Shown here: positions 15,834-59,060 of the stretch, piece by piece | Position numbering within the stretch: position 1 is the stretch's first letter | Layout: every line of letters starts with the position of its first letter | Source of the DNA: Sporichthya sp. | GTDB lineage: Bacteria; Actinomycetota; Actinomycetes; Sporichthyales; Sporichthyaceae | Direction of reading: 5' to 3' | Length of the DNA: 61,125 nucleotides | Assembly: GCF_013815995.1 (NCBI RefSeq) | Contig: NZ_JACDFE010000003.1 | Span: 1-61,125 of the forward strand | Notes under the pieces: generated by a model | Databases searched by the model: none | Seen by the model: only the letters and a program-made list of their open reading frames with translations | Told to the model about the DNA's origin: nothing | Translations under genes and position numbers: made by a program

Positions 15834-15849
15834 GACATCCTCCTCCATT

Positions 15850-15874
15850 TACTAAATGAGTACGATACCTAGTA
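15850..15874. promoter_or_regulatory. Operator-like site A, upstream of operon A
   Basis: One of seven related AT-rich sites. TACT is at position 1, GTAC at 11-14 and TAGTA at the end (21-25). It starts TACTAAATGAGTAC, identical over 14 bases to site D. It lies between the amidohydrolase start and the pentapeptide gene, whose stop codon overlaps it. In a genome of about 70% GC, the local AT content alone stands out. Promoter or repressor-binding role is inferred from position and repetition. Confidence 0.7.
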
Positions 15875-17200: not shown

Positions 17201-17225
17201 TACTAATTGGGTACTGTATATAATA
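17201..17225. promoter_or_regulatory. Operator-like site B, between divergent genes
   Basis: TACTAATTGG, then GTACTGTATA, then TAATA: the same 25-base layout as site G. It sits 22 bases upstream of the pentapeptide gene and 95 bases upstream of the PaaG-like gene, so it could control both. TATAATA at its right end could serve as a -10 for the rightward gene. Function is inferred. Confidence 0.7.
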
Positions 17226-17319
17226 GACTCGCCTCAATCCCCGGTCAATGCAACCGCCGCGGGGACTCGATGACCTTCGATCGCACCCACCACGTCCTGG
17301 TCCCGTCGGAAGGGGCGTC

Positions 17320-18093
17320 ATGACCGAGGAACAACCGCCGGTGCGCGTCGATCACGACGGACCTGTGGCAGTCGTGACCCTGGATCGACCCGAGCGACTG
17401 AACGCGTTGAGTCACGACCTGTTGCGGGAGCTGCGCACCCAGGTCGCCGTTCTAGATGAACGGCGGGACGTGCGGGCCATCGTCCTGACCGGCGCGGGCC
17501 GCGCCTTCTCCGCCGGGGCTGATCTGCAGGGCGGTCCGAGCGACGCGGAAGACGTCCTGAGACGCCTCTACAACCCCCTGATCCGCGATCTGATGGGGCT
17601 TCAGAAGCCGTTGGTCGCCGCTGTCAACGGCGTCGCGGCCGGTGCAGGTGTCTCGCTTGCATTGGCGTGCGACCTCCGAGTCGCTGCAGCCACGGCGACC
17701 TTCCGGCTGGCCTTCGTCAATGTCGGCCTTGTCCCCGACGCAGGCGCGACCTGGTTGCTGCCTCGCATCGTGGGGACCGCGCGCGCGTCCGAGATGGCGT
17801 TGCTGGGCAGAGCCGTCCAGGCGGAGGAGGCCTTGGCCTGGGGTCTGGTAAATCGCGTCGTCCCCGACGGCGAAACCTTGGGTCAGGCGCTGGAGTTGGC
17901 GCACGCCGTCGCTGCGCTCTCCTCGAGCGTCGGGGCGATCCGCCGGCTACTGCACGAGAGCGCCGACCGCACCCTGGAAGAACAGCTCGACGCGGAAGCA
18001 ACCACGCAGGGTCTTGCTCAGTACGGTCCCGACTATGCCGAGGCGCGCCAGGCCTTCAAGGAGAAGCGCAAGCCTCGATTCGCCCGGGACTGA
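17320..18093 (+). CDS. Enoyl-CoA hydratase/isomerase family protein (PaaG-like)
   Basis: A 257-residue crotonase-fold protein. The oxyanion-hole segments are AFSAGADLQG and NGVAAGAGVSLALACDLR. The region that carries the two catalytic Glu in true hydratases reads FVNVGLVPDAGATWLLPRIV, with Asp at one position and no Glu at the other, as in PaaG-type ring-epoxide or double-bond isomerases. An isomerase role is therefore more likely than hydration. ATG 17320 follows GGAAGGGGCGTC. The gene is convergent with the TetR gene, 41 bp away. Confidence 0.85.
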   Translation: MTEEQPPVRVDHDGPVAVVTLDRPERLNALSHDLLRELRTQVAVLDERRDVRAIVLTGAGRAFSAGADLQGGPSDAEDVLRRLYNPLIRDLMGLQKPLVAAVNGVAAGAGVSLALACDLRVAAATATFRLAFVNVGLVPDAGATWLLPRIVGTARASEMALLGRAVQAEEALAWGLVNRVVPDGETLGQALELAHAVAALSSSVGAIRRLLHESADRTLEEQLDAEATTQGLAQYGPDYAEARQAFKEKRKPRFARD

Positions 18094-25357: not shown

Positions 25358-25788
25358 TGCCCGACGGACTTCGCGGAAGTGGAGCCGACCGGCGCGCGGG
25401 ACCCTTCGGAGGCGAAGCTGGTGCGCCGCCGAGGCGTGCCCGCCAAGGCCGCGGCCGGCTCATCGTCACCCAAGGGCATGGACCGCCGGATCCCCGCGCT
25501 GGCCAGTAGGGAGGCGTCCTCACCACGCAACGCCACATCCTCGGCCAGGAGCAGGCGCATCCCGCGTAGCTCACGCCACTCATCCAGCATGTCCGCCGAG
25601 AGCCAGAGCATCGCGCCCAGGCCCAGCAGGAAGACACCCATCAAACCGCCGGAGATGATGTAGGGCAGCTGCTTCGCGACATGCGCGGTCCCGCTGATCC
25701 CGAGATAGCCGAAGATCAGGCACAGCAGCCCGGCCCCGATCGCGACCGACGCTGCGATGCGGTCCCACTGCGACCGCAGGACGCTCAT
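25354..25788 (-). CDS. Small membrane protein of the importer operon
   Basis: A 144-residue protein of unknown function with two membrane helices (about 13-32 and 41-64) and a polar, Arg/Ser-rich tail (RRRTSFASEGS). ATG 25788 gives the 4-base ATGA overlap typical of this operon and has GGAGCTC ahead; an ATG nine bases earlier is possible. Size and topology match the neighbour at 24.9 kb, suggesting that the two act as a pair. Confidence 0.6.
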   Translation of the reverse strand: MSVLRSQWDRIAASVAIGAGLLCLIFGYLGISGTAHVAKQLPYIISGGLMGVFLLGLGAMLWLSADMLDEWRELRGMRLLLAEDVALRGEDASLLASAGIRRSMPLGDDEPAAALAGTPRRRTSFASEGSRAPVGSTSAKSVGQ

Positions 25789-27218
25789 GAGCTCCATCGG
25801 AATCCCACTCCAAACACGCGCATGATCGAGGTGGCCGCGAACGCGACGGCAGCGGTGAGCACCAGGGCGATATAGATGTTGTCGGCGGTGTCACTGCCAC
25901 CGCGGTAGTAGGACGCAAGCTTCGTCGTCCGTTCGTTCCGTGTCGCGGCGCTACTGATCGAGTCAGCTGGCTGCGCCGCTGTGATGTCCACCGGGAGCAC
26001 TCCGCCGGTATCGACACTGGGGAGAGCGCCGGCGCCGAGGCCCGCGGCGTCAACGGAGGTGGAGGGCAAGCCGGAGGTGTCCCCCGACGTCCCGGTCGCA
26101 TCAACCGGACTGATGCCCGACGCATCGCTGCCCAGGCTCAGGGGCCGCAAGTCGACGGTCGCGACCCCCTGACCCACCTTAAAGGTCACCGGGGTGGGGC
26201 CTTTGAAGTACTGGTTGTCCGGCGCCTCAGAGATCTGCGTCTTGAAGGTGAAGCCGACCCCGGTCAGCCCGGTCTCCGAGTCGACCGCGGGTTGGAAGCT
26301 CATCTCAATCCCGGCTGCCTTAAAAGCATCGAACACGGTCTCGGCGGCCAGCGGGACGTTCACCGGAGCGCCGGCGCTCGGCAACGCGACGAAGAACGAG
26401 CCGTCCTTGAAGCCGATGTCCGGGTTCTGGATCTGGTTGCAGCCGAACGGCGCGGGGATCTCCACGACCGGGAACTTCGCCGGTTCCGGCTGCGGCACGC
26501 CCGGGGCCGGGACGAACAGCGGAACGGTCTCGGGTGTGGTGCAGGGGATGCGCATCGACAGCGCCGGGACGTTGATCCGGCCGATCGTGATCGAGGAGCT
26601 GCGGGTCAGCTTTCCGGTGCCTCCGTCGGCAACGACCCGGACCCGGGTCTGCAGACCCGAGAGCTTGAACTGGTCGTCACCCAAAACCAGGCCATCGACC
26701 GTGGACTCGGCCGTCGAGACGACCGATCCGCCATCGGCGACCTGCACCCGCGAGGTCGAGGTGCTGCCGCTGGGATCGCTCCCCACCTGTCCCTTGGAAT
26801 AGGCGTGCTCCGAACCGCTCTCGGCATGCATCGAGGCCCCGGGGAACACTGCGTCCTTGGGATCGTCGCCGTACTGCGTGGTGACGATGACGGGATAGCG
26901 CGGGGTGGGCACCGAGAACAGCGCCCCGCCCATCCCCGGCAGAGCGGCCACCACATCACCCGGGTAGATCGAGGAGGCGGTGGCGTCGGACTGCTGCAGG
27001 CGATTGAGGTGCGCCGAGGAGAACGGCACGTTGAGCTCGGCCGTGAGCCCGAGCGGCAGCGAGGCATTGGTGAGCGTCGCCTGCACGCCGAAGGACTGAG
27101 CGAAGCCCTCGAACGTCGAGTCGGCTCGGGCCGAGCTGCCGGGCAACACCACCCACATCAGGGGGCTCACCCCGACCAGGCCGGCCAGCAGGGCGCCGCG
27201 TGCGCGTCCCAGTCTCAT
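25785..27218 (-). CDS. Secreted, C-terminally membrane-anchored protein, unknown family
   Basis: A 477-residue exported protein. A signal peptide ends near SSARADS (about residue 34). The mature part is rich in beta-strand-like Ser/Thr/Val segments, with one possible disulfide (IPCTTPET and FGCNQIQ). A Ser/Asp/Gly linker follows (about 385-435), then a membrane anchor NIYIALVLTAAVAFAATSIM and a short tail. It heads the importer operon behind operator site C, with AACGAGGAGGT before ATG 27218. The layout resembles a surface receptor or a cell-wall-spanning accessory that delivers a hydrophobic substrate to the transporter. I do not recognise the family. Confidence 0.7.
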   Translation of the reverse strand: MRLGRARGALLAGLVGVSPLMWVVLPGSSARADSTFEGFAQSFGVQATLTNASLPLGLTAELNVPFSSAHLNRLQQSDATASSIYPGDVVAALPGMGGALFSVPTPRYPVIVTTQYGDDPKDAVFPGASMHAESGSEHAYSKGQVGSDPSGSTSTSRVQVADGGSVVSTAESTVDGLVLGDDQFKLSGLQTRVRVVADGGTGKLTRSSSITIGRINVPALSMRIPCTTPETVPLFVPAPGVPQPEPAKFPVVEIPAPFGCNQIQNPDIGFKDGSFFVALPSAGAPVNVPLAAETVFDAFKAAGIEMSFQPAVDSETGLTGVGFTFKTQISEAPDNQYFKGPTPVTFKVGQGVATVDLRPLSLGSDASGISPVDATGTSGDTSGLPSTSVDAAGLGAGALPSVDTGGVLPVDITAAQPADSISSAATRNERTTKLASYYRGGSDTADNIYIALVLTAAVAFAATSIMRVFGVGFRWSS

Positions 27219-27263: not shown

Positions 27264-27288
27264 TATTATATGCAGTACTGTACTAGTT
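27264..27288. promoter_or_regulatory. Operator-like site C, upstream of the importer operon
   Basis: TATTATATGCA, then GTACTGTACTAGTT: a variant of the shared site with 11 rather than 10 bases before GTAC. It lies 46 bases upstream of the secreted-protein gene and just after the binding-lipoprotein gene (stop at 27303), so it likely starts a separate transcript. Confidence 0.6.
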
Positions 27289-30481: not shown

Positions 30482-30506
30482 TACTAAATGAGTACTATAC
30501 CAAGTG
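30482..30506. promoter_or_regulatory. Operator-like site D, upstream of the monooxygenase
   Basis: Begins TACTAAATGAGTAC, like site A, then TATACC and AAGTG. It lies between the dehydrogenase stop (30519) and the monooxygenase start (30456). Spacing matches sites A, B and G. Confidence 0.7.
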
Positions 30507-35651: not shown

Positions 35652-35677
35652 TACTATATCTAGTACTGTATTAGTGT
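35652..35677. promoter_or_regulatory. Operator-like site E, upstream of the second P450 operon
   Basis: TACTATATCTA, then GTACTGTATTAGTG. It is of the 11-base-spaced class like sites C and F. From 35678 to 35855 lies a 178-bp divergent intergenic region between the P450 and dehydrogenase genes, with site F at its other end. Confidence 0.65.
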
Positions 35678-35855: not shown

Positions 35856-35880
35856 TACTTTGTATAGTACTTCTTTAGGA
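35856..35880. promoter_or_regulatory. Operator-like site F, upstream of the dehydrogenase and double TetR genes
   Basis: TACTTTGTATA, then GTACTTCTTTAG: the most divergent copy. TACT elements are 12 bases apart, and the right half is weak. It ends 24 bases before the GTG of the dehydrogenase at 35905. If real, it would place the double TetR gene under its own control. Confidence 0.5.
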
Positions 35881-35904: not shown

Positions 35905-37134
35905 GTGACTGCCAGCACCCCACCGTCGGAGGCCGAGTTCCTCGCTGAGGCCAGAGCATTCCTCGCCTGCTCGGCACCGCGGCGGCTCGCCACGGGGGGC
36001 GCGTGGGGGCAGGGCGATGACGAGGTCCCCGTCCTCGACGCACCTGACGAGGCGCAGGAACGGGCCGACCTGGCACAGGCCCGCGCCTGGAGAGCCACCC
36101 TCTTCGACGCCGGCTACGCCTGGATCGACGGTCCCCCCGCGCACGGCGGGCGGGGACTGCCCGCCGGCCACGCCAAGGCCTTCTCCCGCCTCGAGGCCGA
36201 GTTTGAAATCCCTCGCCTCGACACCATGCTGGTGTCGCTGCGCATCGTCGTCCCAGCTCTCGCCGCGCATGGCACGCCGGAGCAGAAGCGGCAGTTTCTC
36301 CCGAAGCTGTTGCGAGGCGACCTCGTCGCCTGCCAGCTGTTCTCCGAGCCCGAGGCCGGCTCCGACCTGGCCGGCGTCAAGACGAAAGCCGTCCGGCAGG
36401 GCGAAGGCTGGGTCGTCAACGGGCAGAAGGTCTGGACGTCCGGCGGGCACTACTCCGACTTCGGTCTGCTCCTGGCGCGGACCGACCCGGCGGCACCCAA
36501 ACATTCAGCGCTGACGATGTTCCTGGTGGACATGAGATCCCCGGGCATCGATGTCAAACCTCTCCGCCAGATGACCGGGAGCACGAACTTCAACGAGGTG
36601 TTCCTCGACGACCTCGCGGTGCCCGACGGCGCGCGCGTCGGAGAGATCAACGAGGGCTGGCGCGTTGCCGTGACCACCCTCATGACGGAGCGCCAAGCCG
36701 TCGGCGACAGCAAGGAAGCCCCCGTCTCCGTACTCGTGGACCGCCTCCTCGCGCTGGCCCAGCACGAGCACGGCCGTTCACCCATCTCGTACCCGGCCGC
36801 GCGAGACTCCGTGGTCAAGGCGTATGTATTGAGCAAGGTGGCCGACCTGACCAGCGCGCGCTTCCTGCAGAACGCCGAGCGGACCGGAGCCGTGGGACCT
36901 GAGATGTCCGCGGTGAAGCTGATGCGACAAGACGTCCTGAGCCAGGCGCTCGACGCGGCCGGCGTCCTGGTCGGACCGGGAATGACCGCCGACACCGGGC
37001 AGTGGGGAACTTTCGCCTGGGGCCACGCCGCAGTGGCCGCACCGGGGTTGCGGATCGGTGGAGGAACCGACGAGATCCAGCGCAACATCCTGGCCGAGCG
37101 CGTCCTCGGGTTGCCCCGCGAGCCAGTGGCGTGA
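35905..37134 (+). CDS. Acyl-CoA dehydrogenase
   Basis: A 409-residue member of the family with CQLFSEPEAGSDLAGVKTKA, VNGQKVWTSGGHYSD, FNEVFLDDLAVP and LRIGGGTDEIQRNILAERVL. It has a longer, charged N-terminus than the other dehydrogenases here and resembles the FadE17/FadE28-like class that acts on bulky ring-containing acyl-CoAs. GTG 35905 has GGGAG upstream. It is followed after 77 bp by the double TetR gene on the same strand. Confidence 0.86.
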   Translation: MTASTPPSEAEFLAEARAFLACSAPRRLATGGAWGQGDDEVPVLDAPDEAQERADLAQARAWRATLFDAGYAWIDGPPAHGGRGLPAGHAKAFSRLEAEFEIPRLDTMLVSLRIVVPALAAHGTPEQKRQFLPKLLRGDLVACQLFSEPEAGSDLAGVKTKAVRQGEGWVVNGQKVWTSGGHYSDFGLLLARTDPAAPKHSALTMFLVDMRSPGIDVKPLRQMTGSTNFNEVFLDDLAVPDGARVGEINEGWRVAVTTLMTERQAVGDSKEAPVSVLVDRLLALAQHEHGRSPISYPAARDSVVKAYVLSKVADLTSARFLQNAERTGAVGPEMSAVKLMRQDVLSQALDAAGVLVGPGMTADTGQWGTFAWGHAAVAAPGLRIGGGTDEIQRNILAERVLGLPREPVA

Positions 37135-37211: not shown

Positions 37212-38678
37212 ATGCCAAAGGAAGCAGCGTCCGCGAAGGCCACGAAGGATCGGCCGAGGCGGGTCCGGATGTCGCCGGAGGACCGCCGGGCGCAGATCAT
37301 CGACGAGGCTCGCGCGTTGTTCGTCGAGCTGGGCTACGGCGGCGCGCGGATCCACGACATCGCCGTTCGGGCCGGCATCACCGACGCCTTCATTTACTAC
37401 CACTTCGACAGCAAGCGGGAGCTCTACCACGCCGCCATTCGCGAGCCGATCGAGGTACTGATCCACGACCTCGTCGAGGAATCCAACGCGATGAGCAGTC
37501 GGCACGCGACGCACCAGGAGATCCTGCGGCATTTCCACGAGCTGATGTTGCGCTACATGACCGACATCGGACCGTTGCTCGGCGTCGCGCTCCTGTCGGA
37601 CAAGCTCGATGCGAAGGAGCTCTACAACGAGTTCGTCCTCCCGAAGTTCTCGGCGGCGATCGGCTCGATCCTTGCCGAGCTGACAGGGTGGCACGACCAA
37701 GAGGTCGACCTCGAGGTGCTCGTCGAGGCGACGTTCGGGGTTCACCTCGGGATCGCGCTGTGGCGCTTACTCGCCCCTGGCCCGGAGAACCAGCGATCGA
37801 TGGCCCGCCAGCTGGGAACGCTCTTCGGTGGCGGCATTCCTCTCGGCTCGCCCCCAGGGTTCGAGGTCCCGGCCGCTTCCGCTCCGCGGGCCAAGGCCGG
37901 ACGCCGGGCGAAGGCGAAGGCTCTCCCGGCGGCCGCTGGGGAGCAGGGCGATCCCGGATCGGTCGAAGCGTTCCGGGCGAAGATGACGCAGATGCTCCAC
38001 GGGCCGGCCGCACCCGCGGAGGCAGCAGCACCGGCGGGTCCCGAAGTTCGGCGACGCCGCATGTCGGAAGATGCTCGGCGCGCCAGCATTCTTCGCGCCG
38101 CCCGGGAAGTGTTCGTCGCCGCCGGTGTCAAGGAAGCTCGAACGAAGGACATCGCGAGCACGGCCGGGATTACGGAAGCCTTCATGTTCCGGGTCTTCCG
38201 TTCCAAGGACGAGCTCTACCAGGAGGCCGTCGAAGGCCCAGCCGGTGCGGTGTGGCAGCTGCTCACCGTCGAGATCGAGACCGTGGCGAAGGATCCGACG
38301 CTCACCGGACCGGAGATCTTGCTGCGGGTCAACGAGCGCATTCTCGTCGCGCTGGTGGAGGTCGCACCCCTGCTAGGCGTTGTCCTCTTCTCCGACATCG
38401 ATCGGGGCAAGCGATTCGTCGAGATGGTGGCTTCGACGCGGTCGTCGCCGTTCCGGCGCATTCAGAAGGTCATTTCCCAGGCCGCCGGTTGGAAGCCTCC
38501 GGCGATCACCTCGGAGGTGGCGATGAAGGCCATCATGGGGGTCCACCTGGGATTGGCACTCGACGCGATGCTCCGAGAGCGGGAGATCGACATCCCTGAG
38601 ACGGCCCGTTGCATCACCGCGATGCTCATCGCGGGCGTTCGTGCCGACGGTGATCGGGAGACTGCGAGCCTCGCCTAG
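37212..38678 (+). CDS. Double TetR-family regulator (two TetR modules in one chain)
   Basis: A 488-residue protein with two complete TetR modules. HTH 1 is at about 25-72 (ALFVELGYGGARIHDIAV, GITDAFIYYHFDSKRELYHA) and HTH 2 at about 283-335 (REVFVAAGVKEARTKDIAS, GITEAFMFRVFRSKDELYQE). Each is followed by a similar helical ligand-binding domain (DIGPLLGVALLSDKLDAKELY against EVAPLLGVVLFSDIDRGKRF). An Ala/Lys/Pro linker joins them (about 210-275). Ordinary TetR proteins are about 200 residues and dimerise; here the dimer may be built into one chain. ATG 37212 is used. The TAG stop contains the TA target of the IS630 element. Prime candidate for the regulator of sites A-G. Confidence 0.88.
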   Translation: MPKEAASAKATKDRPRRVRMSPEDRRAQIIDEARALFVELGYGGARIHDIAVRAGITDAFIYYHFDSKRELYHAAIREPIEVLIHDLVEESNAMSSRHATHQEILRHFHELMLRYMTDIGPLLGVALLSDKLDAKELYNEFVLPKFSAAIGSILAELTGWHDQEVDLEVLVEATFGVHLGIALWRLLAPGPENQRSMARQLGTLFGGGIPLGSPPGFEVPAASAPRAKAGRRAKAKALPAAAGEQGDPGSVEAFRAKMTQMLHGPAAPAEAAAPAGPEVRRRRMSEDARRASILRAAREVFVAAGVKEARTKDIASTAGITEAFMFRVFRSKDELYQEAVEGPAGAVWQLLTVEIETVAKDPTLTGPEILLRVNERILVALVEVAPLLGVVLFSDIDRGKRFVEMVASTRSSPFRRIQKVISQAAGWKPPAITSEVAMKAIMGVHLGLALDAMLREREIDIPETARCITAMLIAGVRADGDRETASLA

Positions 38679-39820
38679 TGGTTTGTCTGTGAATTAGCGC
38701 GGTATAGTGGACCATGCCGATCAAGACAGCACCGGCGATGCCGGTCACCAGTGAGCAGCGTGCCGAGTTGACCCGGATGGCGCGGTCCTCGACGTTGCCC
38801 CACCGTGCGGTGGTCCAGGCCCGGGGTCTTCTGTTGGCCGCGGACGGCGTGGCCAATCAGGAGATCGCGCGGCGTTGCGAGGTGGACTCGGACACTGTGC
38901 GCCGGTGGCGGGTCCGGTTCGCCGAGGCTGGCCCGGCCGGTCTCGGGGTGATCGCCAAGGGCCGGGGGCGTAAGGCGTGGTTGCCCGAGGGGACGGTGGC
39001 CAAGGTGTTGCACGCGACTCAGCACGAGAGCCCGCCGGACGGCTCGACGCATTGGTCCACGCGGTCGCTGAGCAAGCATCTGGGGATCGGCAAGGACGCG
39101 GTGGCCCGGATCTGGTCCGACCACAACCTCAAGCCGTGGAAGCTCGACACCTTCAAGATCAGCAACGATCCCCGGTTCGAGGAGAAGCTGGTCGATGTGG
39201 TCGGGGTCTACCTCAACCCGCCGGCTCGGGCGGTGGTGTTCAGTTTCGATGAGAAGACCCAGTGCCAGGCGTTGGACCGCACTCAGCCTTCGCTGCCGAT
39301 GAAGGCGGGCCGGGCGGGCACCATGACCCACGACTACAAGCGCAACGGCACCGTCGACCTGGTCGCCGCGATGAACATCGCCACCGGGCAGGTCCTGACC
39401 CACTGTCAGAAAGGACACACCGGCACCGACGTCCTGCGATTCTTCAAGCAGATCGACGCCGCCGTCCCGCGCGGACTGGGCGTGCACGTGATCCTGGACA
39501 ATCTTTCCGCGCACTCCACCCCGGAGATCGCCAAGTGGCTCGCACACAAGGACCGCCGCCGCTGGCACCTGCACTTCACCCCCACCTCAAGTTCGTGGCT
39601 GAACCTGGTCGAGCGCTGGTTCAAGGAGTTGACCGAGAAGCGTCTGCTCCGCGGGCGGTTCACCAGCGTCGCCGAACTCACCGCCGCGATCACCGACTGG
39701 GCCGGGCACTGGAACAGCGACCCGAAGCCCTTCATCTGGAAGGCGACCGCGGAGGAGATCATCGCCAAGGTTCGGCGCGGCCGCGCCACGCTCAACCAGA
39801 TCAATTCGCAGACGGACCAC
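38678..39820 (+). mobile_element. IS630-family insertion sequence (1143 bp)
   Basis: Ends are imperfect inverted repeats: GTGGTTTGTCTGTGAATTAG at the left, and GTGGTCCGTCTGCGAATTGA reading inward from the right. TA dinucleotides flank both ends (38676-38677 and 39821-39822), the normal target duplication for IS630/Tc1 elements. It carries one transposase. The insertion lies in the stop codon of the double TetR gene, and because the target is TA followed by G on both sides the stop is restored as TAG. Confidence 0.9.
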
Positions 39821-39823
39821 TAG
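38714..39823 (+). CDS. IS630-family transposase
   Basis: A 369-residue DDE transposase. It has N-terminal HTH domains (QEIARRCEVDSDTVRRWRVRF), a second HTH (TRSLSKHLGIGKDAVARIW), and DDE residues in VFSFDEKTQ, VILDNLSAHS and SSWLNLVERWF. It looks intact. Its own TAG stop is made from the TA target duplication and the next host base, so the reading frame runs exactly to the element end. Confidence 0.92.
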   Translation: MPIKTAPAMPVTSEQRAELTRMARSSTLPHRAVVQARGLLLAADGVANQEIARRCEVDSDTVRRWRVRFAEAGPAGLGVIAKGRGRKAWLPEGTVAKVLHATQHESPPDGSTHWSTRSLSKHLGIGKDAVARIWSDHNLKPWKLDTFKISNDPRFEEKLVDVVGVYLNPPARAVVFSFDEKTQCQALDRTQPSLPMKAGRAGTMTHDYKRNGTVDLVAAMNIATGQVLTHCQKGHTGTDVLRFFKQIDAAVPRGLGVHVILDNLSAHSTPEIAKWLAHKDRRRWHLHFTPTSSSWLNLVERWFKELTEKRLLRGRFTSVAELTAAITDWAGHWNSDPKPFIWKATAEEIIAKVRRGRATLNQINSQTDH

Positions 39824-41787: not shown

Positions 41788-41812
41788 TACTAAATCGGTA
41801 CTGTATATAGTA
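41788..41812. promoter_or_regulatory. Operator-like site G, between divergent Rieske and crotonase genes
   Basis: TACTAAATCG, then GTACTGTATA, then TAGTA: the best-formed copy. It holds three half-sites, TACT at 1, TACT at 12 and AGTA at 22. It lies 19 bases from the Rieske start and 46 from the crotonase start, so it can govern both directions. Confidence 0.72.
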
Positions 41813-47477: not shown

Positions 47478-47957
47478 GAGCGTCTACGGGCTTGAACCGC
47501 AGCACCAGAGTGCGTCGACGTCGCCGGGCGACACCCCGCCATCATCGCCCCGACCACCGCGGACGCCCAAGGCCAACCCCGGATACCGGCAGCGAAGTAC
47601 GGACGGGTATGGACTCTGACGGATCGTCACGGACGATATCCGAATTGATCCGCTCCACGTCTTTTGACGACAATGTCAGCCCTACGGACCCCGCGCCGAG
47701 ACGGCCCGCACGGCCGACAACGGCGCCGCCGGGCACTGCGATCCACCTTCGTCGGCACCTCGCCCCCGCCAGCGCACCCAGCCGAAGGGTGCCCGCCCGC
47801 ATCAGCCTGGCCGACGAACGGAGTGCGTACGGGCCGAATACTCATCTTGCTCAAGGTGAGGCCGCCGTCGATCTGGCCGGGATCGCGCACACAGGGAGGA
47901 CGTGGAGCCCTCCCAAACGCGCCTCGCGCCGAACCCATCAGCCCGGTGGCCGCGGTG
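47478..47957. other. Intergenic region between IS110 remnant and relaxase; no gene supported
   Basis: About 470 bases without a credible gene; open frames here lack recognisable protein. Expected contents are the right end of the IS110 element and, being directly upstream of a MobF relaxase, perhaps an origin of transfer. An imperfect inverted repeat (GGATCGTC, ACG, GACGATATCC) lies near 47619-47640. I cannot show that it is an oriT. Confidence 0.35.
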
Positions 47958-50900
47958 ATGTCGTTGGCGCGCCTGTCGGCGGGGTCGGGATACCGGTACC
48001 TGCTCAAGCACACCGCGTGCGGGGACTGCGCCCGCGATGCCGGGACGTCATTGACGTCGTACTACGCCGAGTCGGGCTACCCGGCCGGCCGGTGGTTCGG
48101 CTCCGGGTTGGCCGGGCTCAACGGCGGGCGCGGGCTGACCGCGGGCACGGCCGTCACCGAGGAGGCGATGGCGGCGCTCTACGGTCGCGGGCACGACCCG
48201 GTCAGCGGGGCGGCACTCGGCCGCGCCTACCCCACGTACCGGACGGCCGACGACCGGATCGCCGACGCGGTCAATCGACTACCCGAAACCCTCACCGGCG
48301 CGGAGCGCCAAGCCGCGACCGACGCGATCGAGACCCGCGAGCGCGCCCGCCCGGTGAAGGCTGCGGTTGCCGGATTCGACCTGACGTTCACGGCGCCGAA
48401 GTCGGCGAGCGTGCTGTGGGCGCTCGGCGACCCGGGCACGCAGCAGGCCATCGCCGACGCTCACCGCGACGCGGTCACCTCGGTGCTGTCCTTGATCGAG
48501 GACCGTTTCCTGCACACCCGCACCGGCGCCCACTCGTGCGCGCAGGTCGCGACTCGCGGGATGCTCGCCGCCGGCTTCGAACACTGGGACACCCGGACCG
48601 GCGATCCCAACCTGCACACGCACGTCGTGATCGCCAACAAGGTGCAAGGACCCGACGGGCGTTGGCGCTCGGTCGACGGGCAAGCGATCTATCACGCCGC
48701 CGTCGCGTGCTCCGAGGTGTACGACACCCTGCTCGCCGACGCACTGGCCGCTCGCCTCCCTCTCACCTGGGGACTGCGGGACCGCGGAGATCGCCGCAAC
48801 CCGGCCTTCGAGATCGACGGCGTGGACGACGTGCTGCTCACGCTGTTCTCCGCGCGCAGCAGCCAGATCGAGGCACACCTGCGCGGTCTGCTCGCCGACT
48901 TCAGCGCCGAGTACGGACGTGACCCGACCCGCCGCGAGATGCTGCGGCTGCGCCAGCAGTCCACCCTGGCCTCCCGCCCGGAAAAGACCGTCGCGCCACT
49001 GCCGGACCTGTTCACCCGCTGGCGGACCCAGGCCGCGGCGGCAACAGGTCGGCCCATCGAGGAGATCACCGCGTCCGCGCTTCACGCCGCCGCCTCCCCG
49101 GTTCAGGCCGACGCGGTCCCGGCCGAGTTGATCGAGCGATTCGCGCAGGCGACGCTGGTCGCGCTCGGGGAACGCCGCTCGACCTGGACCCGGCCGAACC
49201 TGCTCGCCGAAGCCGCCCGCGCCACACGCCTGCTGCGCGTCGCCGAACCGAGCGAGCGGATCGCGCTGCTGGACCGGGTCGTCGATGCCGCACTGTCCGC
49301 GTGCGTTGCGCTGGATCCACCCGAGGTGTTCAACACCCCGGCCCGGTTCCGTCGTGCGAACGGGACCAGCGCCTTCACCCGTCCCGACGAGCACGCCTTT
49401 ACGACCGCCGCGGTGCTGGCGGCCGAGGCGCGGCTGCTGGCGGGCACCACCCTCCTCGACGCAGCGCGCGTGGACGCCGAGGACCTTGCCGCCGCGGCAG
49501 CGAGGATCCCGCCGGGGGCACCCGGGCGGCGGCTGTCGGCGGACCAGCAGGCGGCGGTCGTCGCGATCGCTTCGTCCGGGCGCCGTATCGATGTGCTCGT
49601 CGGCCCGGCCGGCACGGGGAAGACCCGCACCCTTCGGGCGTTGCGGGCCGGCTGGGAACACGTTCACGGTCGCGGATCGGTCATCGGGCTGGCGCCCTCG
49701 TCCACTGCAGCCGCCGAACTCTCCGCGGCTCTCGGGGTGACGTGCGAGAACACCGCGAAGTGGCTGCACGAGTCCACCCGCGACGACCCCGACCCGCGCT
49801 GGGTCCTGCGGCGCGGACAGCTGTTGGTCCTCGACGAAGCGTCCATGGTCGCCACCGGTGATCTCGACGCCCTGGCCACCCAGGCCGCGACCGCCGGGGC
49901 GAAGCTGGTCCTGGTCGGTGATCATCACCAGCTCGGCGCCGTCGGCGCCGGCGGCGCGTTCGCGCTGTTGGCCGAACAGCAGCAGGCTGTGCACCTCAGC
50001 GCGCTGTGGCGGTTCGAGCACCAATGGGAGGCCGAGGCGACCCGTGGCCTGCGGGACGGGCGCACCGGCGTCCTGGACGCCTACGCCGAGCATGATCGGC
50101 TGCGCGGCGGGCCCGGTGAGCTGATGATGGACGCCGCCTACACCGCGTGGGCCGCGGACATCGCCGCCGGGCGCACCGCCGTCCTGGTCGCCACCGACCG
50201 CCGCACCGTCGCGGCGCTGAACCGGCGTGCCCACGACGACCGCGTCGACGCGGGGCTCGTGCACCCTGACGGCATCGCGCTCGCCGATGAGACCAGCGGC
50301 GGAGTCGGGGACATCGTCGTCACCCGACGCAACGACAGGAGAATCCCGGCCCCCGACGGTCACGTCCGCAACGGCGCCCTGTGGCAGATCACCGCAGCGA
50401 GCCCCGACGGGTCGATCGAGGTCCGGCCACTCCCCCGCACCGGCGACGACGCCCACAACGCCGAAAGCCACGCCGACGCGTCCGCCAACACAATCCACCT
50501 GCCCGCCGAGTACGTCCAAGCGCACGTCGAGCTCGGCTACGCCACCACCGTGCACCGCGCCCAGGGCACAACCGTCGACCGCGGCCACGCCGTCATCCAG
50601 GAAGGGATGACCCGCCAGCAGCTCTACGTCGCGATGACCCGCGGCCGAGGCGCAAACCACGCCTACGTCGCGCTCGACGGACTCGACCCGACCTGTCCCC
50701 AGCAACCCGACGAGCACGTCATTCCGACGGTGCGTCAGATGATGGACAAGGTGCTCGCCACTGACGGCGCCGAACTGTCCGCCACCGCGACCCTGCGCCG
50801 CCGCCAGAACGACGCGACCTCGCTGCGCCACCTGCTGCCGATCCGCGACACCCTCACCGCAGCGGCCGAGGCAGGCGACGGTGAGACCGGCCGATCGGCC

Positions 50901-51020
50901 GACGAGATCCGGCACCTTCTTCGACTCCGGGCAGAACAAGCCCGGCGAGCCCAGGACAGCCGGCCCGCATGCCACCCAGCCACCCCGGCCCACCACACTC
51001 ACGAAGGGATCCAGCGTTGA
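47958..51020 (+). CDS. MobF-type relaxase-helicase (TraA-like)
   Basis: A roughly 1020-residue conjugation protein that nicks and unwinds plasmid DNA for transfer. The TrwC-like relaxase part has FDLTFTAPKSASVLWALGD and the metal-binding His set DPNLHTHVVIAN, with candidate catalytic Tyr residues in LTSYYAESGY. The RecD-like helicase has VLVGPAGTGKTRTL, LLVLDEASMV, VLVGDHHQLGAVG, TVHRAQGTT and LYVAMTRGR. The start is uncertain: ATG 47958, GTG 47955 or GTG 47946 are all near the first conserved residues (SLARLSAGSGYRYLL). The gene is intact. It faces away from the coupling-protein cluster. Confidence 0.9.
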   Translation: MSLARLSAGSGYRYLLKHTACGDCARDAGTSLTSYYAESGYPAGRWFGSGLAGLNGGRGLTAGTAVTEEAMAALYGRGHDPVSGAALGRAYPTYRTADDRIADAVNRLPETLTGAERQAATDAIETRERARPVKAAVAGFDLTFTAPKSASVLWALGDPGTQQAIADAHRDAVTSVLSLIEDRFLHTRTGAHSCAQVATRGMLAAGFEHWDTRTGDPNLHTHVVIANKVQGPDGRWRSVDGQAIYHAAVACSEVYDTLLADALAARLPLTWGLRDRGDRRNPAFEIDGVDDVLLTLFSARSSQIEAHLRGLLADFSAEYGRDPTRREMLRLRQQSTLASRPEKTVAPLPDLFTRWRTQAAAATGRPIEEITASALHAAASPVQADAVPAELIERFAQATLVALGERRSTWTRPNLLAEAARATRLLRVAEPSERIALLDRVVDAALSACVALDPPEVFNTPARFRRANGTSAFTRPDEHAFTTAAVLAAEARLLAGTTLLDAARVDAEDLAAAAARIPPGAPGRRLSADQQAAVVAIASSGRRIDVLVGPAGTGKTRTLRALRAGWEHVHGRGSVIGLAPSSTAAAELSAALGVTCENTAKWLHESTRDDPDPRWVLRRGQLLVLDEASMVATGDLDALATQAATAGAKLVLVGDHHQLGAVGAGGAFALLAEQQQAVHLSALWRFEHQWEAEATRGLRDGRTGVLDAYAEHDRLRGGPGELMMDAAYTAWAADIAAGRTAVLVATDRRTVAALNRRAHDDRVDAGLVHPDGIALADETSGGVGDIVVTRRNDRRIPAPDGHVRNGALWQITAASPDGSIEVRPLPRTGDDAHNAESHADASANTIHLPAEYVQAHVELGYATTVHRAQGTTVDRGHAVIQEGMTRQQLYVAMTRGRGANHAYVALDGLDPTCPQQPDEHVIPTVRQMMDKVLATDGAELSATATLRRRQNDATSLRHLLPIRDTLTAAAEAGDGETGRSADEIRHLLRLRAEQARRAQDSRPACHPATPAHHTHEGIQR

Positions 51021-51382
51021 CCAGCCCCGAGTACACCGAGAACCTGCCGCCGGACCTGTTCCCGACCTTCCCGGTCTGCTGGGCCACGCTCAGCGACCTC
51101 GAGACCGAGGACTCGCTCGAGGAACTGGAAGACTGGATCACCTGGCTCGTCGAGCGCTACACCCTCGACCACCGCACCGTCCCGCCGTGCTGGGAGCACC
51201 ACGGGGCGCTGGTCGAAGAGCTGTCCGCGCTGCGAACCGCGTGGATCGCTGCGTTCAATGTCACCGGTCGACCTGAGGCACCCCTGGAGTGGCACGCACA
51301 GTTCGCCGGCGCCCGACAAAGACTGACTGACTGGGCGTCGCGCACTGGCTGTCGTACTGGGACCCACCGACCGGACCGCTGA
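51017..51382 (+). CDS. DUF4913-like small plasmid protein
   Basis: A 121-residue acidic protein whose core (DWITWLVERYTLDHRTVPPC, then EELSALRTAWIAAF) resembles the DUF4913 family common on actinobacterial plasmids. TTG 51017 overlaps the relaxase stop and has GAAGGGA upstream, so it is translationally coupled. Function unknown; linkage suggests a transfer accessory. Confidence 0.6.
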   Translation: MTSPEYTENLPPDLFPTFPVCWATLSDLETEDSLEELEDWITWLVERYTLDHRTVPPCWEHHGALVEELSALRTAWIAAFNVTGRPEAPLEWHAQFAGARQRLTDWASRTGCRTGTHRPDR

Positions 51383-51444
51383 CTCGATTCATCGCATCGC
51401 GAGGCTTGCGGTCGCGCGCATCAGATCCAGGCTGGACGGGAAGG

Positions 51445-52248
51445 TCAGCCGGGTGCACACGAATCGAGAAGGTCCAGCAAGTCACAAGATCGAGTGAAGT
51501 ACGAGAACTGCAACGGCTGCTCCTGTGCGTCGCGAAAGCTACCTGTGTTCACGCCAATTAGCCGGAGCGGGCGGTGTGGAGGCCCTTTCAAACCCCCTCC
51601 AAGAGACAGTCCGCGTTGCGTCGCAAAGACGGGGGCACCGGAGAGGCCGGAACGGCTCAGGGACTGATACAGCACTGCTCGGGCGTCACCTGCGGCGCGC
51701 TCGACAGTCACTGGATGACGCGGGTCGGCTGCAATCAATCCGGTCAGGAGAACCGGGCGATCTGACGTGACGCCCGGCAAGCTCGCGTACCCGGGAGAGG
51801 CGATGAAGTCTCCCGCTCTAACGTCTGCGCCGAACTCGCCTTCAGACGCCAACATCTCTCTGCGGATCCAGTGGAGCGGGAGCGCGCCCGTGAACGTTGA
51901 GGCCGTTGCTAGCGGACTGAGCGGGATCACCGCGATATCGAGGTCGCCCGCAGCCGGAAAGATCGGCGCAGCGACCGGCACGAACTCAATCCAGTGCTCC
52001 TCCTCTTCCGCGAGATGGTTCCAGCCGGACACACCGACTTCGTGGAGCTGTGCCCCCACGTGTTTGGGTATCGCCAGCCGAGGATCGACGACGTGACGGG
52101 CTGTTGCCAGGAAATAGCCAGCACCCCCATTCTCAACGACGAACCCAGTGCCACTTCCGCTTGCGCTACTGCCGTCCCGCAACGTGAAGACGACCGAGAG
52201 ACGAAGAGCGCTGTACAACAGCGCATTCGAGAAACCGAGGTCCAGCAT
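51445..52248 (-). CDS. Trypsin-like serine protease domain protein
   Basis: A 267-residue protein with a chymotrypsin-fold triad: His in FLATARHVVD, Asp in DLDIAVIPL, Ser in RSGLSGAPVF. GSGTGFVVENGG at the start matches the first strands. No signal peptide or membrane segment is visible, so it is probably cytosolic, unlike HtrA enzymes. ATG 52248 has GGAGACC ahead; the frame opens to 52350. Convergent with the DUF4913 gene (62 bp apart). Such lone cytosolic trypsin-like proteins on mobile elements sometimes act in defence, but nothing here proves it. Confidence 0.7.
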   Translation of the reverse strand: MLDLGFSNALLYSALRLSVVFTLRDGSSASGSGTGFVVENGGAGYFLATARHVVDPRLAIPKHVGAQLHEVGVSGWNHLAEEEEHWIEFVPVAAPIFPAAGDLDIAVIPLSPLATASTFTGALPLHWIRREMLASEGEFGADVRAGDFIASPGYASLPGVTSDRPVLLTGLIAADPRHPVTVERAAGDARAVLYQSLSRSGLSGAPVFATQRGLSLGGGLKGPPHRPLRLIGVNTGSFRDAQEQPLQFSYFTRSCDLLDLLDSCAPG

Positions 52249-52401
52249 CTCGCTGGTCTCCAAACCGAGATCTACCGATGCTGAGGAAACCTGTCCGACC
52301 CCATCATCACCTTGGACCCTCCGACCACCACCGCGTGCCCGGGCAGTCATCCGCAGCCAGCCGGTCAGTAGGCAGAGTGCGACCGGAGGGGCAAGCTGGC
52401 G

Positions 52402-53766
52402 TTACGCCGAGGGCGGCAGGTGCTCCCGCTGTGGTGCGGCAGGGTGTGGCGGTCGCAGCAGGTAAGCGGGAGATTGCGGGAACTGACGAGCGGAGCGAAC
52501 CGACGGCGCGCCAACCCGGACCGCCGCGTCCGTCTGACTGTCGATGTGGGGTCGCAGCGTTTCAGCGGCGACGACCGCGCGGTCGAGCTGCGTGAGCATC
52601 CGCGGTGTGCGGTCCGGGTCCTGCGTCGTCGCGACGGTGTGCCGCAGGTGGGATTGCTGGCTTCGGTCGGGTATGGCCCAGTGCCGAAGCTCGACCTGCT
52701 CCCGAGCCTTGTCAGCGAGGGCGGTCAGCAGCCGAGGGAGGCGGCCCGCCAAGCGTGAAGCCTCGTCAACGGCGGGCAGCGGAGCGCGGCCGCCGAGGGC
52801 CGCGCGGGTGTAGCAAGAGAGCTCGCGGATCTGATGCTCCAGCGCGGGTGCTCGGCACTCGACGAGCATCGCTTCACCGTGACGGCCCGCGACGACCTGA
52901 TTGAGCGTCACGGCGAGCCCGCCGAGATCGTCCCGTAGCGGCCGGCCCGAAGGTTCAATTGCGCCGGCCTTGGCGGCGAGGATGCTCAGGTCGCGGCCAA
53001 GGGTGGCGACGACCCGAACGTGGTTCGGTGCGAGTTCGTCCGCGGCCTTGATCTGGGTCGTCAGGCGACGAAGTGCCGCAGCCGCGGACTGCCCGTCGGT
53101 CGGGGTGATGACCCGACGCGATTCCGGGCCGCCGATGGTCAGGGCCCGGACCGCCTGGCTCTGGCCGGCGCCGGTCGGCGCGTCCGCGAGACTGCGCACC
53201 TCGCGAGCGACCAGCCGAAGGCCCGCGGTGCGGTCGAGGTAGGCGACGACGTCAGACCGGGACGCCGCTGCCGCCGCCCCCGCGAGCACGGGGTCCAGGG
53301 CGGCGACGAGCTCTGTGAGAGCGGCGACTTGCCGCACGGCGTGCCAGGCCTGATCGCCCTCGGGCTGCCGCGGTACGGCGGACCAGATTCGGTCGGCCAC
53401 CAGGGCGTCCCGCCCGACAGCGGCCCACTGCCGGGTCGCTGCGCTTCCGGGGGCGGCGGCATCGAGCAGGTCACTCGGGGCCCTGGAGACCCGCGGACGC
53501 CCTCGGTCTTGCAGGAGGATTCCGAGCGCCCGAACGGGGTGGCGTTCGGTCAGCGCGAGCAGGTCCCGCTGCCCGTGCGGAAGTCGGTCCCCACCGGCCG
53601 GCGCCAGATCCCGCAGGACGACCGCGGCACCGGCCAGGACCGCGGCCCGCGCGGTGACGGCAACCTCGACATCCATAGCGGCGGGGTCACCGCTCCGAGG
53701 ACCGCGGCCGGCGAGCGCCGCCAGACTGACGGCGCTGCGGAGGACGACCTCGTCCCAGGCGGTCAC
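52402..53766 (-). CDS. Hypothetical helical protein of the conjugative module
   Basis: A 454-residue Ala/Arg/Leu-rich, mostly helical protein with no motif I recognise (WHAVRQVAALTELVAALDPV, LRRLTTQIKAADELAPNHVR). GTG 53766 overlaps the stop of the gene upstream (GTGA), so the two are made together. The fairly even charge and heptad-like leucines suggest a long helical or coiled-coil scaffold. Codon use fits a real gene, but the region also has open antisense frames. Confidence 0.6.
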   Translation of the reverse strand: MTAWDEVVLRSAVSLAALAGRGPRSGDPAAMDVEVAVTARAAVLAGAAVVLRDLAPAGGDRLPHGQRDLLALTERHPVRALGILLQDRGRPRVSRAPSDLLDAAAPGSAATRQWAAVGRDALVADRIWSAVPRQPEGDQAWHAVRQVAALTELVAALDPVLAGAAAAASRSDVVAYLDRTAGLRLVAREVRSLADAPTGAGQSQAVRALTIGGPESRRVITPTDGQSAAAALRRLTTQIKAADELAPNHVRVVATLGRDLSILAAKAGAIEPSGRPLRDDLGGLAVTLNQVVAGRHGEAMLVECRAPALEHQIRELSCYTRAALGGRAPLPAVDEASRLAGRLPRLLTALADKAREQVELRHWAIPDRSQQSHLRHTVATTQDPDRTPRMLTQLDRAVVAAETLRPHIDSQTDAAVRVGAPSVRSARQFPQSPAYLLRPPHPAAPQREHLPPSA

Positions 53767-54143
53767 GGCCACTGCGCCGAACAACCGCCCACGTCGAAGC
53801 CGGGGTTGTCGGCGAGCAGGTCGAGTTCGGCGAGGTCGGCGATCGTCGCCGCATAACGGGCCACGTCCGCGGCCGTGTCGGCGTAGACGATGGCCGCTCC
53901 GAGAAGCCTGACGGCATCGGCGATGTCGAACCCCTGGTCGTCCGAATCCTCGATGTCGGTCAGAGGCGGGTAAGGCGGGTACACCGACTCCAAGCTCAGG
54001 AACGCAAGCCCGATCGCGGTGAGATCGCAGCAGGGGTCCAGCGGGTGCTCGTCCAGGGCGAGCCGGAGCTGGGCGCTCGCCAGGGCCAGCCGCGCCAACT
54101 GCACGACCTCGGGCGGGTCGGTGAAGATCGGTTCCGGGTTCAT
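53763..54143 (-). CDS. Hypothetical acidic protein
   Basis: A 126-residue acidic, helical protein (VVQLARLALASAQLRLALDE, YADTAADVARYAATIADLAE) of unknown function. ATG 54143 follows CGAGGAGCAC. Coupled to the 454-residue gene downstream by a 4-base overlap. Lies 124 bp after the broken ArdC-like gene in the same direction, so all were probably one operon with the coupling protein. Confidence 0.6.
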   Translation of the reverse strand: MNPEPIFTDPPEVVQLARLALASAQLRLALDEHPLDPCCDLTAIGLAFLSLESVYPPYPPLTDIEDSDDQGFDIADAVRLLGAAIVYADTAADVARYAATIADLAELDLLADNPGFDVGGCSAQWP

Positions 54144-54267
54144 CTGTGCTCCTCGGTTGGGGGTGTGTTTCGACGACGGTGGACGCGAATCGGCGAGCGC
54201 AGACCCGGCGCGGCCCGGATCTGTGGATGACCGGCCGGGGCAGATCGGGTTGTGGACGACGTGGCGG

Positions 54268-54861
54268 TCAGCACGGGCTTGGCCCATCCCGCTCTGCCGC
54301 GTGCGGCTGAGGAGCGCGCGGCGCCCGGTCGTACTCCGGCAGCAGTGGCTCCAGATCAGCGGCGGGACAGTCGAGGCGAAGATCGGTGACGATGCCGCGG
54401 GCCGTGCCGATCGCCCGGGTCGCGGCGTCCCGAAGCATCGAGGAGTCGCCGCCGGACCAGCCAGCGAGGTAGGGGACCGAGTAGGCCTCGCTGGTCAACC
54501 CGGCGGCGTGGGTGACCAGGAAGGCGATCGACTCCGCCTCGACCTCGGCCTGGGCACGACACCCCAGCGAGCTTCCGTACTCGGCGAGGAACCGGGTCTC
54601 GTGGTCGGCGCGAATGTGGCCGAGCTCGTGGGCGAGGGTCTTGGCAGCTTGGGCGTCGGACACGTCGTCGCGGACGACGACGGTGCGAGCAGTGAAGTCG
54701 GTGATGCCATTGGCGCCGCCGCTGCACGGGCCGCGCCGAACCGCATACCCGAAGGTTTGGATGCTCTCCACGAGACGCGTGACGAGCAGTCCGGGGGCAT
54801 CTCCGGCGAGCAACTCAGGGCCGCACTCGGGGAGCGGCTCCCCTTCGGTCTGCGCGAGATC
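54268..54861 (-). pseudogene. 3' part of an ArdC-like gene (metallopeptidase domain)
   Basis: About 197 codons starting LAQTEGEPLPE and carrying TLAHELGHIRADHE, the HExxH zinc site of the C-terminal peptidase domain in ArdC-like antirestriction proteins. There is no start of its own, and the upstream frame runs into the antisense of a recombinase gene. The N-terminal half lies 4.2 kb away at 59061-59471 in the same strand, phase and protein order, so a mobile element split the gene. ArdC proteins protect incoming plasmid DNA from restriction in other systems. Confidence 0.82.
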
Positions 54862-54864
54862 TTC

Positions 54865-54877
54865 TCTTGAGATTCGG
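54865..54877. repeat. Left terminal inverted repeat of the recombinase element
   Basis: TCTTGAGATTCGG; the right end read inward is TCCCGAGATTCGG, 11 of 13 identical. Confidence 0.6.
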
Positions 54878-54945
54878 TCGCGGTGTGTCGCACGCGCTGG
54901 GCTGGGCGGCGGGCTCGTAGCGTCAGGTATGCAGGAGGTGCGGCG

Positions 54946-56136
54946 ATGGCCGGGTCTGGTGTTGGGGTCGAGGTCGTGGATGCGTTCTTGACGGAGCTGA
55001 CCCGTCAGGGCTGCGGTTCTTACACTCTTCGCGCTTACCGCTACGGCGTGCTGGACTTCGGGCGCTGGCTGGCCGAGCGAGACAAGCCGTTGGGTTCGGT
55101 GTCCAGGGCAGATATCGAGGACTACATCGGGGCCTTCGCCGACGGCGAGCGCGGCGCGGGCCGGGCGCCACACGCGGTCACCGATCCGGTCGTGGTTGAG
55201 CTGGACTCGGGGCGCCCGGTGGCGCGCCCGGGTCGGGCCGCTCGGACGGTTAACCACCGGTTGAGCGTGCTGGCCGCGTTCTTCGAGTTCCTGGCCCAGA
55301 GCGGCCTTGACGGGGTGTGGCCCCGGGAGCGGGTCAGCCCGGTGCCGGCCGCTCCGCAGGCCGGACCGCGGCACGGTCGCCCCGGCGGTGGCGATGTCCC
55401 GGTCCGGGCGCGCGCGGAGCTGCGTCGCCGGGAACCGCAGGCGATCGCGCGCGATCTCGATCCGGCGGTGATCGCGCGCCTGGTCGAGGCCGCGCCGTCG
55501 TGGCGGGACCGGGCGTTGTTGTTGCTGCTTTCGCGCAGCGGGGCCCGGATCGGTGACTGGAGCGAGCTGCATGGCCGGCACGGCGCGCTGGGCATGGAGC
55601 TGGCCGATCTGGATCGACGCACCGGCACGGTCATCGTCCGGTTGAAGGGCGCCCGCGACGAGCACTGCGTGCCGGTCTCCGCGCCGTTCTGGACCGCGTT
55701 CGATCGCTACCTGACCGAGGAACGTGGGGATCCGCCCACGAACGCGGCCTGGGTCGGCACCCGGCGAGGACGGGGCCGCCCGCTGAGCTACGCGGCCTTC
55801 GAGGCGGGCTTGCGGCACCTGGGCGCCAGAGTCGGGGTCACGGTCAGCGCGCACATGTTTCGGCACACGGTCGCCACGGCCCTGGTCGAGCACGGCGGCG
55901 CGGCGGTGGCCCAGCGGGTGCTCGGTCACCGCCACGTCGGCACCACGATCGACAGCTACGTCCACGTGGACCGGGTCGCGCTGGTGGCCGCGCTGGCCGC
56001 CTTCGAGGACCGGCCCACACCCGCGGAAGCCCGCAGCGCTGCGAGCGGGCAACGGTATGTGTTCCACTACGACCCCTCCACTCTGGCTGTGCTGGACGAG
56101 ATCGCGCATCCGCGCGTCGTTGAGGACGGATCGTGA
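54946..56136 (+). CDS. Tyrosine recombinase, TnpA-like
   Basis: A 396-residue integrase-family recombinase. The N-terminal SAM-like DNA-binding domain spans about 10-110 (SYTLRAYRYGVLDFGRWLAE). The catalytic domain has Arg in LLSRSGARIGDW, HxxR in SAHMFRHTVA, a later His in VLGHRHVGTT and the nucleophilic Tyr in IDSYVHVD. All catalytic residues are present. ATG 54946 has GGAGG upstream. Its stop overlaps the next recombinase start (GTGA), implying that the two act together. Confidence 0.9.
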   Translation: MAGSGVGVEVVDAFLTELTRQGCGSYTLRAYRYGVLDFGRWLAERDKPLGSVSRADIEDYIGAFADGERGAGRAPHAVTDPVVVELDSGRPVARPGRAARTVNHRLSVLAAFFEFLAQSGLDGVWPRERVSPVPAAPQAGPRHGRPGGGDVPVRARAELRRREPQAIARDLDPAVIARLVEAAPSWRDRALLLLLSRSGARIGDWSELHGRHGALGMELADLDRRTGTVIVRLKGARDEHCVPVSAPFWTAFDRYLTEERGDPPTNAAWVGTRRGRGRPLSYAAFEAGLRHLGARVGVTVSAHMFRHTVATALVEHGGAAVAQRVLGHRHVGTTIDSYVHVDRVALVAALAAFEDRPTPAEARSAASGQRYVFHYDPSTLAVLDEIAHPRVVEDGS

Positions 56137-58406: not shown

Positions 58407-58418
58407 GAGCATCCCGGC

Positions 58419-58949
58419 ATGCCCCGCACCTGGCTGTCCATCCGCGTCGACCTCGTCGAAGGCCACGCCGACTACCTGTGGCCCCGGCCCGGGCGGATCT
58501 TCGCCGCTGCCCGCCGGCACACCTTCGCCGAGCTCGCCACCGCGATCGATGACGCGTTCGCCCGCTGGGACCGCGCGCACCTGCACCAGTTCTGGCTCGC
58601 CGACGGCGCCCGCGTCAGCACGCCCGACCCCGAATGGGACGAGCCCGACCAGGTCGTGCACGACGACCGCAAGCTCACCCTGGCCCGCCTGCAACCCGGC
58701 GAGCAGTTCGCCTACGAGTTCGACTTCGGCGACAGCTGGCTGCACCTGTGCACCGTCGGCCCGGTGCGCATCGACCCCCTCGACCAGCTCGGCATCACCC
58801 CCGACCAGCCCATGCCCTACTGGGGGTGGGGAACGATCCCCGACCAGTACGGCCGCCGCTGGGACAGCGACGACGGCGAAAGCCGTCCACCGGCCAACCC
58901 CAAGGGCACCGACCTCCCCCACATCGGCCCATGGCAGTGGCGTCGTTGA
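58419..58949 (+). CDS. Plasmid pRiA4b ORF3-like protein
   Basis: A 176-residue protein of the pRiA4b ORF3 (IS1096 TnpR-like) family. It shows FAELATAIDDAFARWDRAHLHQFWL, FAYEFDFGDSWLHLCTV (the conserved FDFGDxW core) and a Trp/Gly-rich end (MPYWGWGTIPDQYG). The molecular role of the family is unknown, but it recurs in mobile elements. It starts 12 bp after the large recombinase and replaces the TnpC position of Tn554-like elements. Confidence 0.85.
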   Translation: MPRTWLSIRVDLVEGHADYLWPRPGRIFAAARRHTFAELATAIDDAFARWDRAHLHQFWLADGARVSTPDPEWDEPDQVVHDDRKLTLARLQPGEQFAYEFDFGDSWLHLCTVGPVRIDPLDQLGITPDQPMPYWGWGTIPDQYGRRWDSDDGESRPPANPKGTDLPHIGPWQWRR

Positions 58950-58982
58950 GCTCGCCCCCGGCCCGGCGTTGAGCTCGCCCCC
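58945..58982. repeat. Subterminal direct repeat, two copies
   Basis: GTTGAGCTCGCCCCC occurs at 58945-58959 and 58968-58982, 23 bases apart, near the right end of the recombinase element. The first copy overlaps the stop of the pRiA4b-like gene. Possibly recombinase or accessory-protein binding sites. I did not find it at the left end. Confidence 0.55.
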
Positions 58983-59041
58983 GAGCGGCCTGACACACTG
59001 GACCCAGTCGCTGCCAGCCCGGCCGCACGGCGGGCACCGGG

Positions 59042-59054
59042 CCGAATCTCGGGA
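59042..59054. repeat. Right terminal inverted repeat of the recombinase element
   Basis: CCGAATCTCGGGA, the near-exact inverse of 54865-54877. Confidence 0.6.
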
Positions 59055-59060
59055 TAACGG

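Follow-up and report, generated by a model that had tools for sequence, protein, structure and literature searches.

TetR proteins are usually homodimers that bind palindromes. In a stretch of 61,125 nucleotides from Sporichthya sp., indicated below as the window, one gene appears to encode two TetR repressors in a single chain: the question raised by this locus is whether such a protein may act as a built-in, asymmetric dimer, and which DNA it would read. The features discussed are reported in Table 1.

Table 1. Positions within the window of the double TetR gene, of the neighboring genes discussed and of the putative operators
Feature	Position	Strand	Basis or context
Double TetR-family repressor, 488 aa	37212..38678	+	module 1 ~17-210, linker 211-285, module 2 ~286-476
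N-terminal TetR module, HTH DIAVRAGITDAFIYYHF	37212..37841	+	TetR_N at residues 29-75 (Pfam), alignment
Ala/Arg/Pro linker, residues 211-285	37842..38066	+	composition, AlphaFold model
C-terminal TetR module, HTH DIASTAGITEAFMFRVF	38067..38675	+	second TetR_N stretch; AGITEAF invariant in six doubles
Acyl-CoA dehydrogenase	35905..37134	+	Pfam; GTG start at 35905 inferred from sequence
Ordinary TetR (TetR_C_11), ~193 aa	18135..18716	-	downstream of ABC-transporter genes
Operator copy	15850..15874	+	upstream of amidohydrolase 14433-15848; matrix, genome pattern search
Operator copy	17201..17225	+	upstream of enoyl-CoA hydratase 17248-18093
Operator copy	27264..27288	-	upstream of 25785-27218 (minus), first gene of ABC-transporter series; matrix
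Operator copy	30482..30506	+	upstream of flavin-monooxygenase gene (start 30456, minus strand)
Operator copy	35652..35676	-	upstream of divergent P450 gene 34328-35605
Operator copy	35856..35880	-	24 bp before dehydrogenase-regulator operon (putative autoregulation)
Operator copy	41788..41812	+	between Rieske/KshA-like genes and enoyl-CoA hydratase gene

The gene is a single, intact ORF of 488 codons, from an ATG start to a TAG stop. Its product contains two stretches of the TetR_N DNA-binding domain (PF00440; combined score 83 bits, cut-off 24), and predicted helices fill both modules, in keeping with the all-helical ligand/dimerisation domain that follows the HTH in the family. Both modules are full-length, scoring 292 and 278 bits with a family HMM built partly from the halves of this same protein; the polypeptide thus features the two TetR modules typical of the Mce3R architecture. 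The halves are 36% identical over 198 aligned residues (E 3e-31). The existence of one 488-residue protein with two full, unlike TetR modules, proposed in the preliminary description, is therefore borne out.

The second HTH shows no sign of decay: AGITEAF, one Arg and one Lys are invariant in module 2 of the six aligned double TetRs, and both HTHs look functional, as judged from the alignment. The linker is Ala-rich, as anticipated, but Arg rather than Lys is its main basic component (20 A, 10 P, 8 R, 4 K); it is mostly modeled at low pLDDT, with one predicted helix at residues 251-263. The chain does not seem to be cut into two proteins: a separate C-terminal product is unlikely, because the in-frame ATGs at 37983, 37992 and 38061 lack, by eye, a clear ribosome site.

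The AlphaFold model of the 488-residue monomer (pLDDT 79.6, pTM 0.79), a prediction suggested in the preliminary description, has as its best Foldseek match a double TetR, Mce3R (9b7y), to which it aligns along the chain over 478 columns, with a TM of 0.64 by target length and an rmsd of 7.0 A. The model of the Mycobacterium triplex relative also matches 9b7y best (432 columns, TM 0.65 by target length). The rmsd of the AlphaFold models to 9b7y is 6.6-7.0 A, and the models, built on six sequences, are uninformative on chain-chain contacts. FadR, FasR and KstR2 are the next-best matches, to single modules. Mce3R (Rv1963c) is a double TetR from M. tuberculosis, whose cryo-EM structure (9b7y) is termed by its authors the first of a double TetR (PMC11667970); the architecture is therefore already known and not unprecedented. 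Its halves form one asymmetric unit on a 25-27-bp non-palindromic operator, with two unlike HTHs per site, and each chain contains a single composite ligand-binding domain (PMC11667970). Since this is the case for Mce3R, one ligand pocket per chain is, by analogy, at least as likely as the two ligands originally proposed.

The asymmetric, three-half-site operators described for this island are found in seven copies. Three related 25-mers were noticed at first; pattern searches and a matrix then led to seven sites, with consensus TACTAAATSRGTACTRTATANAGTA. Six of them served to build the matrix, which then found the seventh, at 15850, with a score of 37.8. All seven score 37.8-45.6; the next place in the window scores 13.9 and is one of these same sites read on its reverse strand. 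The three boxes occupy positions 1-7, 10-15 and 21-25, and conservation falls off abruptly on either side of the 25 bp; the core, TACTRTATANAGTA, comes close to a palindrome, the third box lies at a fixed spacing in all seven sites, and none of the seven features a fourth box. The sites are located 0-46 bp 5' of ORF starts. When the whole 4.5-Mb genome was searched with pattern TACTAANNNRGTACTNTATANNGTA, allowing up to 3 mismatches, 6 of the 7 sites were returned, all on this contig (the 27264 site was missed), and no operator was found outside the island. The operator pattern, with 2 mismatches, had no match in the other 296 genomes of the class.

The genes accompanying these sites encode P450s, Rieske/KshA-like oxygenases, acyl-CoA dehydrogenases, thiolases, MaoC and enoyl-CoA hydratases, a flavin monooxygenase and a branched-chain-type ABC transporter. 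Judging from these gene assignments, the island fits the catabolism of a steroid- or terpenoid-like compound via CoA thioesters; none of the 10 island proteins run against NCBIfam reached an equivalog cut-off. The acyl-CoA dehydrogenase gene preceding the double TetR, at a distance of 77 bp, is probably co-transcribed with it. A transposase gene (DDE_3, IS630-like; 38714-39823) begins 36 bp past the stop codon of the double TetR. IS21-type transposase and IstB genes are located at one end of the island (349-3023), and a TrwC relaxase (47664-51020) and a protein with an ArdC N-domain (56067-59471) at the opposite end (47664-59471); the island seems to be carried by a plasmid or element.

Other proteins with two TetR modules were then looked for, as the preliminary description had suggested, and doubles were found in Mycobacterium, in Solimonas and in the host genome itself. 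A search of genome contigs with the whole protein detected no relative; a contig search with the alignment of the halves revealed double TetRs in three mycobacteria, M. triplex, M. stellerae and M. pinniadriaticum, and in Solimonas terrae, a gammaproteobacterium (L019, L020, L022 and L023). They share the architecture of the window protein, in the tree their N and C halves fall with the N and C halves of that protein or of its paralogue, and a similar operator motif lies nearby; they differ in overall sequence, being 29-37% identical, and in gene neighborhood. The host genome carries a second double of the same clade (L002, C294) and also a Mce3R-like double (L101 3018-4199, G000 C114), so that its double TetRs number three or more and belong to two lineages.

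For these relatives, the matrix was used as built, from window sites only. In the three mycobacteria it finds a site, scoring 14.9-23.2, upstream of a MaoC-type gene that diverges from the double TetR gene; in Solimonas the site, scoring 22.4, precedes an amidohydrolase-like gene. These scores were reached by none of 150 shuffles of each locus. The mycobacterial sites keep a GTACT-N6-AATA core, without the outer TACTAAAT box. All three have TTTGTTTAGTACTAGCTATAATA in common, a sequence present in 2 of the 148 genomes of the genus of G007, in each case adjoining a double TetR; by protein search, a double TetR is found in 1 of 60 genomes of that genus, which is one of the two with TTTGTTTAGTACTAGCTATAATA. 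Some AT-rich loci score up to 20.5, equal to the weaker mycobacterial sites, but lack the RGTACT core. The co-occurrence of motif and double TetR is thus an association in small numbers, and the site a putative operator.

Several further candidates were discarded. High-scoring loci from gammaproteobacterial MAGs, in which the RGTACT core is missing, look like artefacts of AT composition. Scores were weak in L102, L104 and L018 (7.9-11.7), where 1, 6 and 12 of 150 shuffles, respectively, did as well. The Solimonas and Mycobacterium targets could not be assigned as orthologues of the island amidohydrolase and MaoC genes: the comparison failed, with no clear orthology. Around a single-domain relative of the clade, in L104 (9583, 14827 and 17365; G003 C14), a motif, ACTATANNTACAT, recurs, in 4 places with up to 2 mismatches where 0.07 would be expected; it is similar to a portion of the island operator. 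The Solimonas site (L023 1382-1417) continues into an inverted flanking half-site, similar to a fourth box, which the window sites do not have.

In Rhodococcus jostii (L021) and Rhodococcus sp. JS3073 (L018), one TetR gene resembles the N half and another, separate one the C half; in R. jostii the two flank an enoyl-CoA hydratase gene. They differ from the doubles in being two genes, not one chain; yet one clusters with the N halves and the other with C halves. One branch of the tree of halves, supported at 82/91 and at 94/96 once the Mce3R halves are added, has all N halves and Rhodococcus gene A on one side, and gene B groups with two C halves (90/92). One or several fusions are possible inside the clade, because the C halves do not form one clean clade; the unfused pair could be ancestral, or the result of a later split. 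An adjacent TetR pair on Sphingobium plasmid pMSHV (L099 4998-6422) was rejected as a further unfused pair, given its weak HMM scores (42 and 67 bits).

The preliminary description had deduced a duplication followed by fusion from the similarity of PLLGVALLSD and PLLGVVLFSD in the two ligand domains. This argument does not hold, as the motif is family-wide: single-domain proteins feature PLLGVALFSD (L003) and PLLTVAMFSE (L011). The 36% identity of the halves might suggest that a single TetR gene was recently duplicated in tandem, in place, but each half reaches 38% with halves or single TetRs of other genomes, and this origin is considered very improbable. The topology tests, limited by long branches, reject the window N and C halves as sisters (p-AU 0.032), and also reject a single fusion shared with Mce3R, pairing N with M1 and C with M2 (p-AU 0.0048). 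The N and C halves do not join the corresponding Mce3R modules, as descent from the Mce3R lineage would imply; island-type halves are set apart from Mce3R-type halves at 100/99. Because one shared fusion is rejected, tandem TetRs appear to have arisen at least twice, the island lineage being separate from that of Mce3R.

In the reading that we consider probable, the double TetR represses a CoA-thioester/steroid-like catabolic island, its own gene included, acting as a Mce3R-like pseudo-dimer on the 25-bp operator. The two unlike modules of one chain would fold into one asymmetric TetR pseudo-dimer, similar to that of Mce3R; when no inducer is present, it would sit on the operators at the island promoters and block transcription, repressing also itself through the copy 5' of the dehydrogenase-regulator operon. 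A hydrophobic or CoA-thioester pathway intermediate, the most likely ligand, would probably release it. As regards the built-in asymmetric dimer on an asymmetric operator originally proposed, the halves are unlike, the sites are asymmetric and Mce3R provides a precedent, while the binding itself is what we infer, together with repression, ligand and stoichiometry on the DNA.

The ordinary TetR of the same island is the strongest competitor for the operator: as a homodimer it could bind the near-palindrome TACT-N6-AGTA, leaving the double TetR to regulate elsewhere or to modulate. The nearly palindromic core would suit such a homodimer, and the gene of the ordinary TetR lies downstream of ABC-transporter genes, the first of which has an operator. 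Yet in Mycobacterium and Solimonas the motif adjoins double TetRs, with no other TetR found by the family HMM in the 8-kb loci, and a plain homodimer leaves unexplained the third box, at its constant distance in every site: ownership of the operator by the ordinary TetR is judged quite improbable. Three boxes are, on the other hand, more than one pseudo-dimer with two HTHs requires, and two double-TetR chains might pair across modules, placing three or four HTHs on three or four boxes 10-11 bp apart. The spacing of the three boxes, of about one helical turn, is consistent with such pairing, as are the extended Solimonas site and the dimerisation of Mce3R chains (PMC11667970). In Mce3R, however, one four-helix bundle forms inside each chain, and every chain has a 25-27-bp site to itself (PMC11667970); as a fourth box is also missing from the window operators, cross-pairing of chains seems unlikely, and the pseudo-dimer formed within one chain is preferred.

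A wider proposal is put forward as tentative, and on balance doubtful: a separately evolved double-TetR lineage would read a three-box operator over three successive helical turns, with two unlike HTHs per chain, and would be related to an interacting Rhodococcus TetR pair, so that some TetR paralogues might be obligate heterodimers.

The new elements are the separate double-TetR clade, its unfused Rhodococcus counterparts and the recurring asymmetric site; no publication on the Mycobacterium and Solimonas doubles of this clade was found in the open-licence literature, while closed or unpublished work may exist. A second lineage with unfused counterparts would make the passage from homodimer to heterodimer to single chain directly testable, and the recurring site would do the same for the change from symmetric to asymmetric recognition of DNA. 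If it binds as supposed, the protein would also be useful in circuit design, as a natural repressor in a single chain whose operator is compact and apparently specific to the island.

Among known systems, FadR, FasR and KstR2 are similar in being TetR regulators of lipid catabolism with acyl-CoA or steroid-CoA ligands, but are one-module chains acting as homodimers. The engineered single-chain TetR, sc-rtTA, consists of two head-to-tail TetR moieties and a linker, folds intramolecularly and is functional; it is artificial, however, and both moieties derive from the same TetR protein (PMC1797012). Mce3R is the closest parallel in architecture, sharing with the 488-residue protein two non-identical TetR modules in one chain; it reads asymmetric operators of about 25 bp, to which the putative island operators are comparable, and controls lipid/cholesterol-related genes and itself, as the island protein probably does. 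It differs in total length, 406 residues against 488, the linker of the island protein alone spanning about 75; in its operators, for which no palindrome is reported (PMC11667970), as opposed to the nearly palindromic core of the island sites; and in belonging to another TetR clade than the halves of the island protein.
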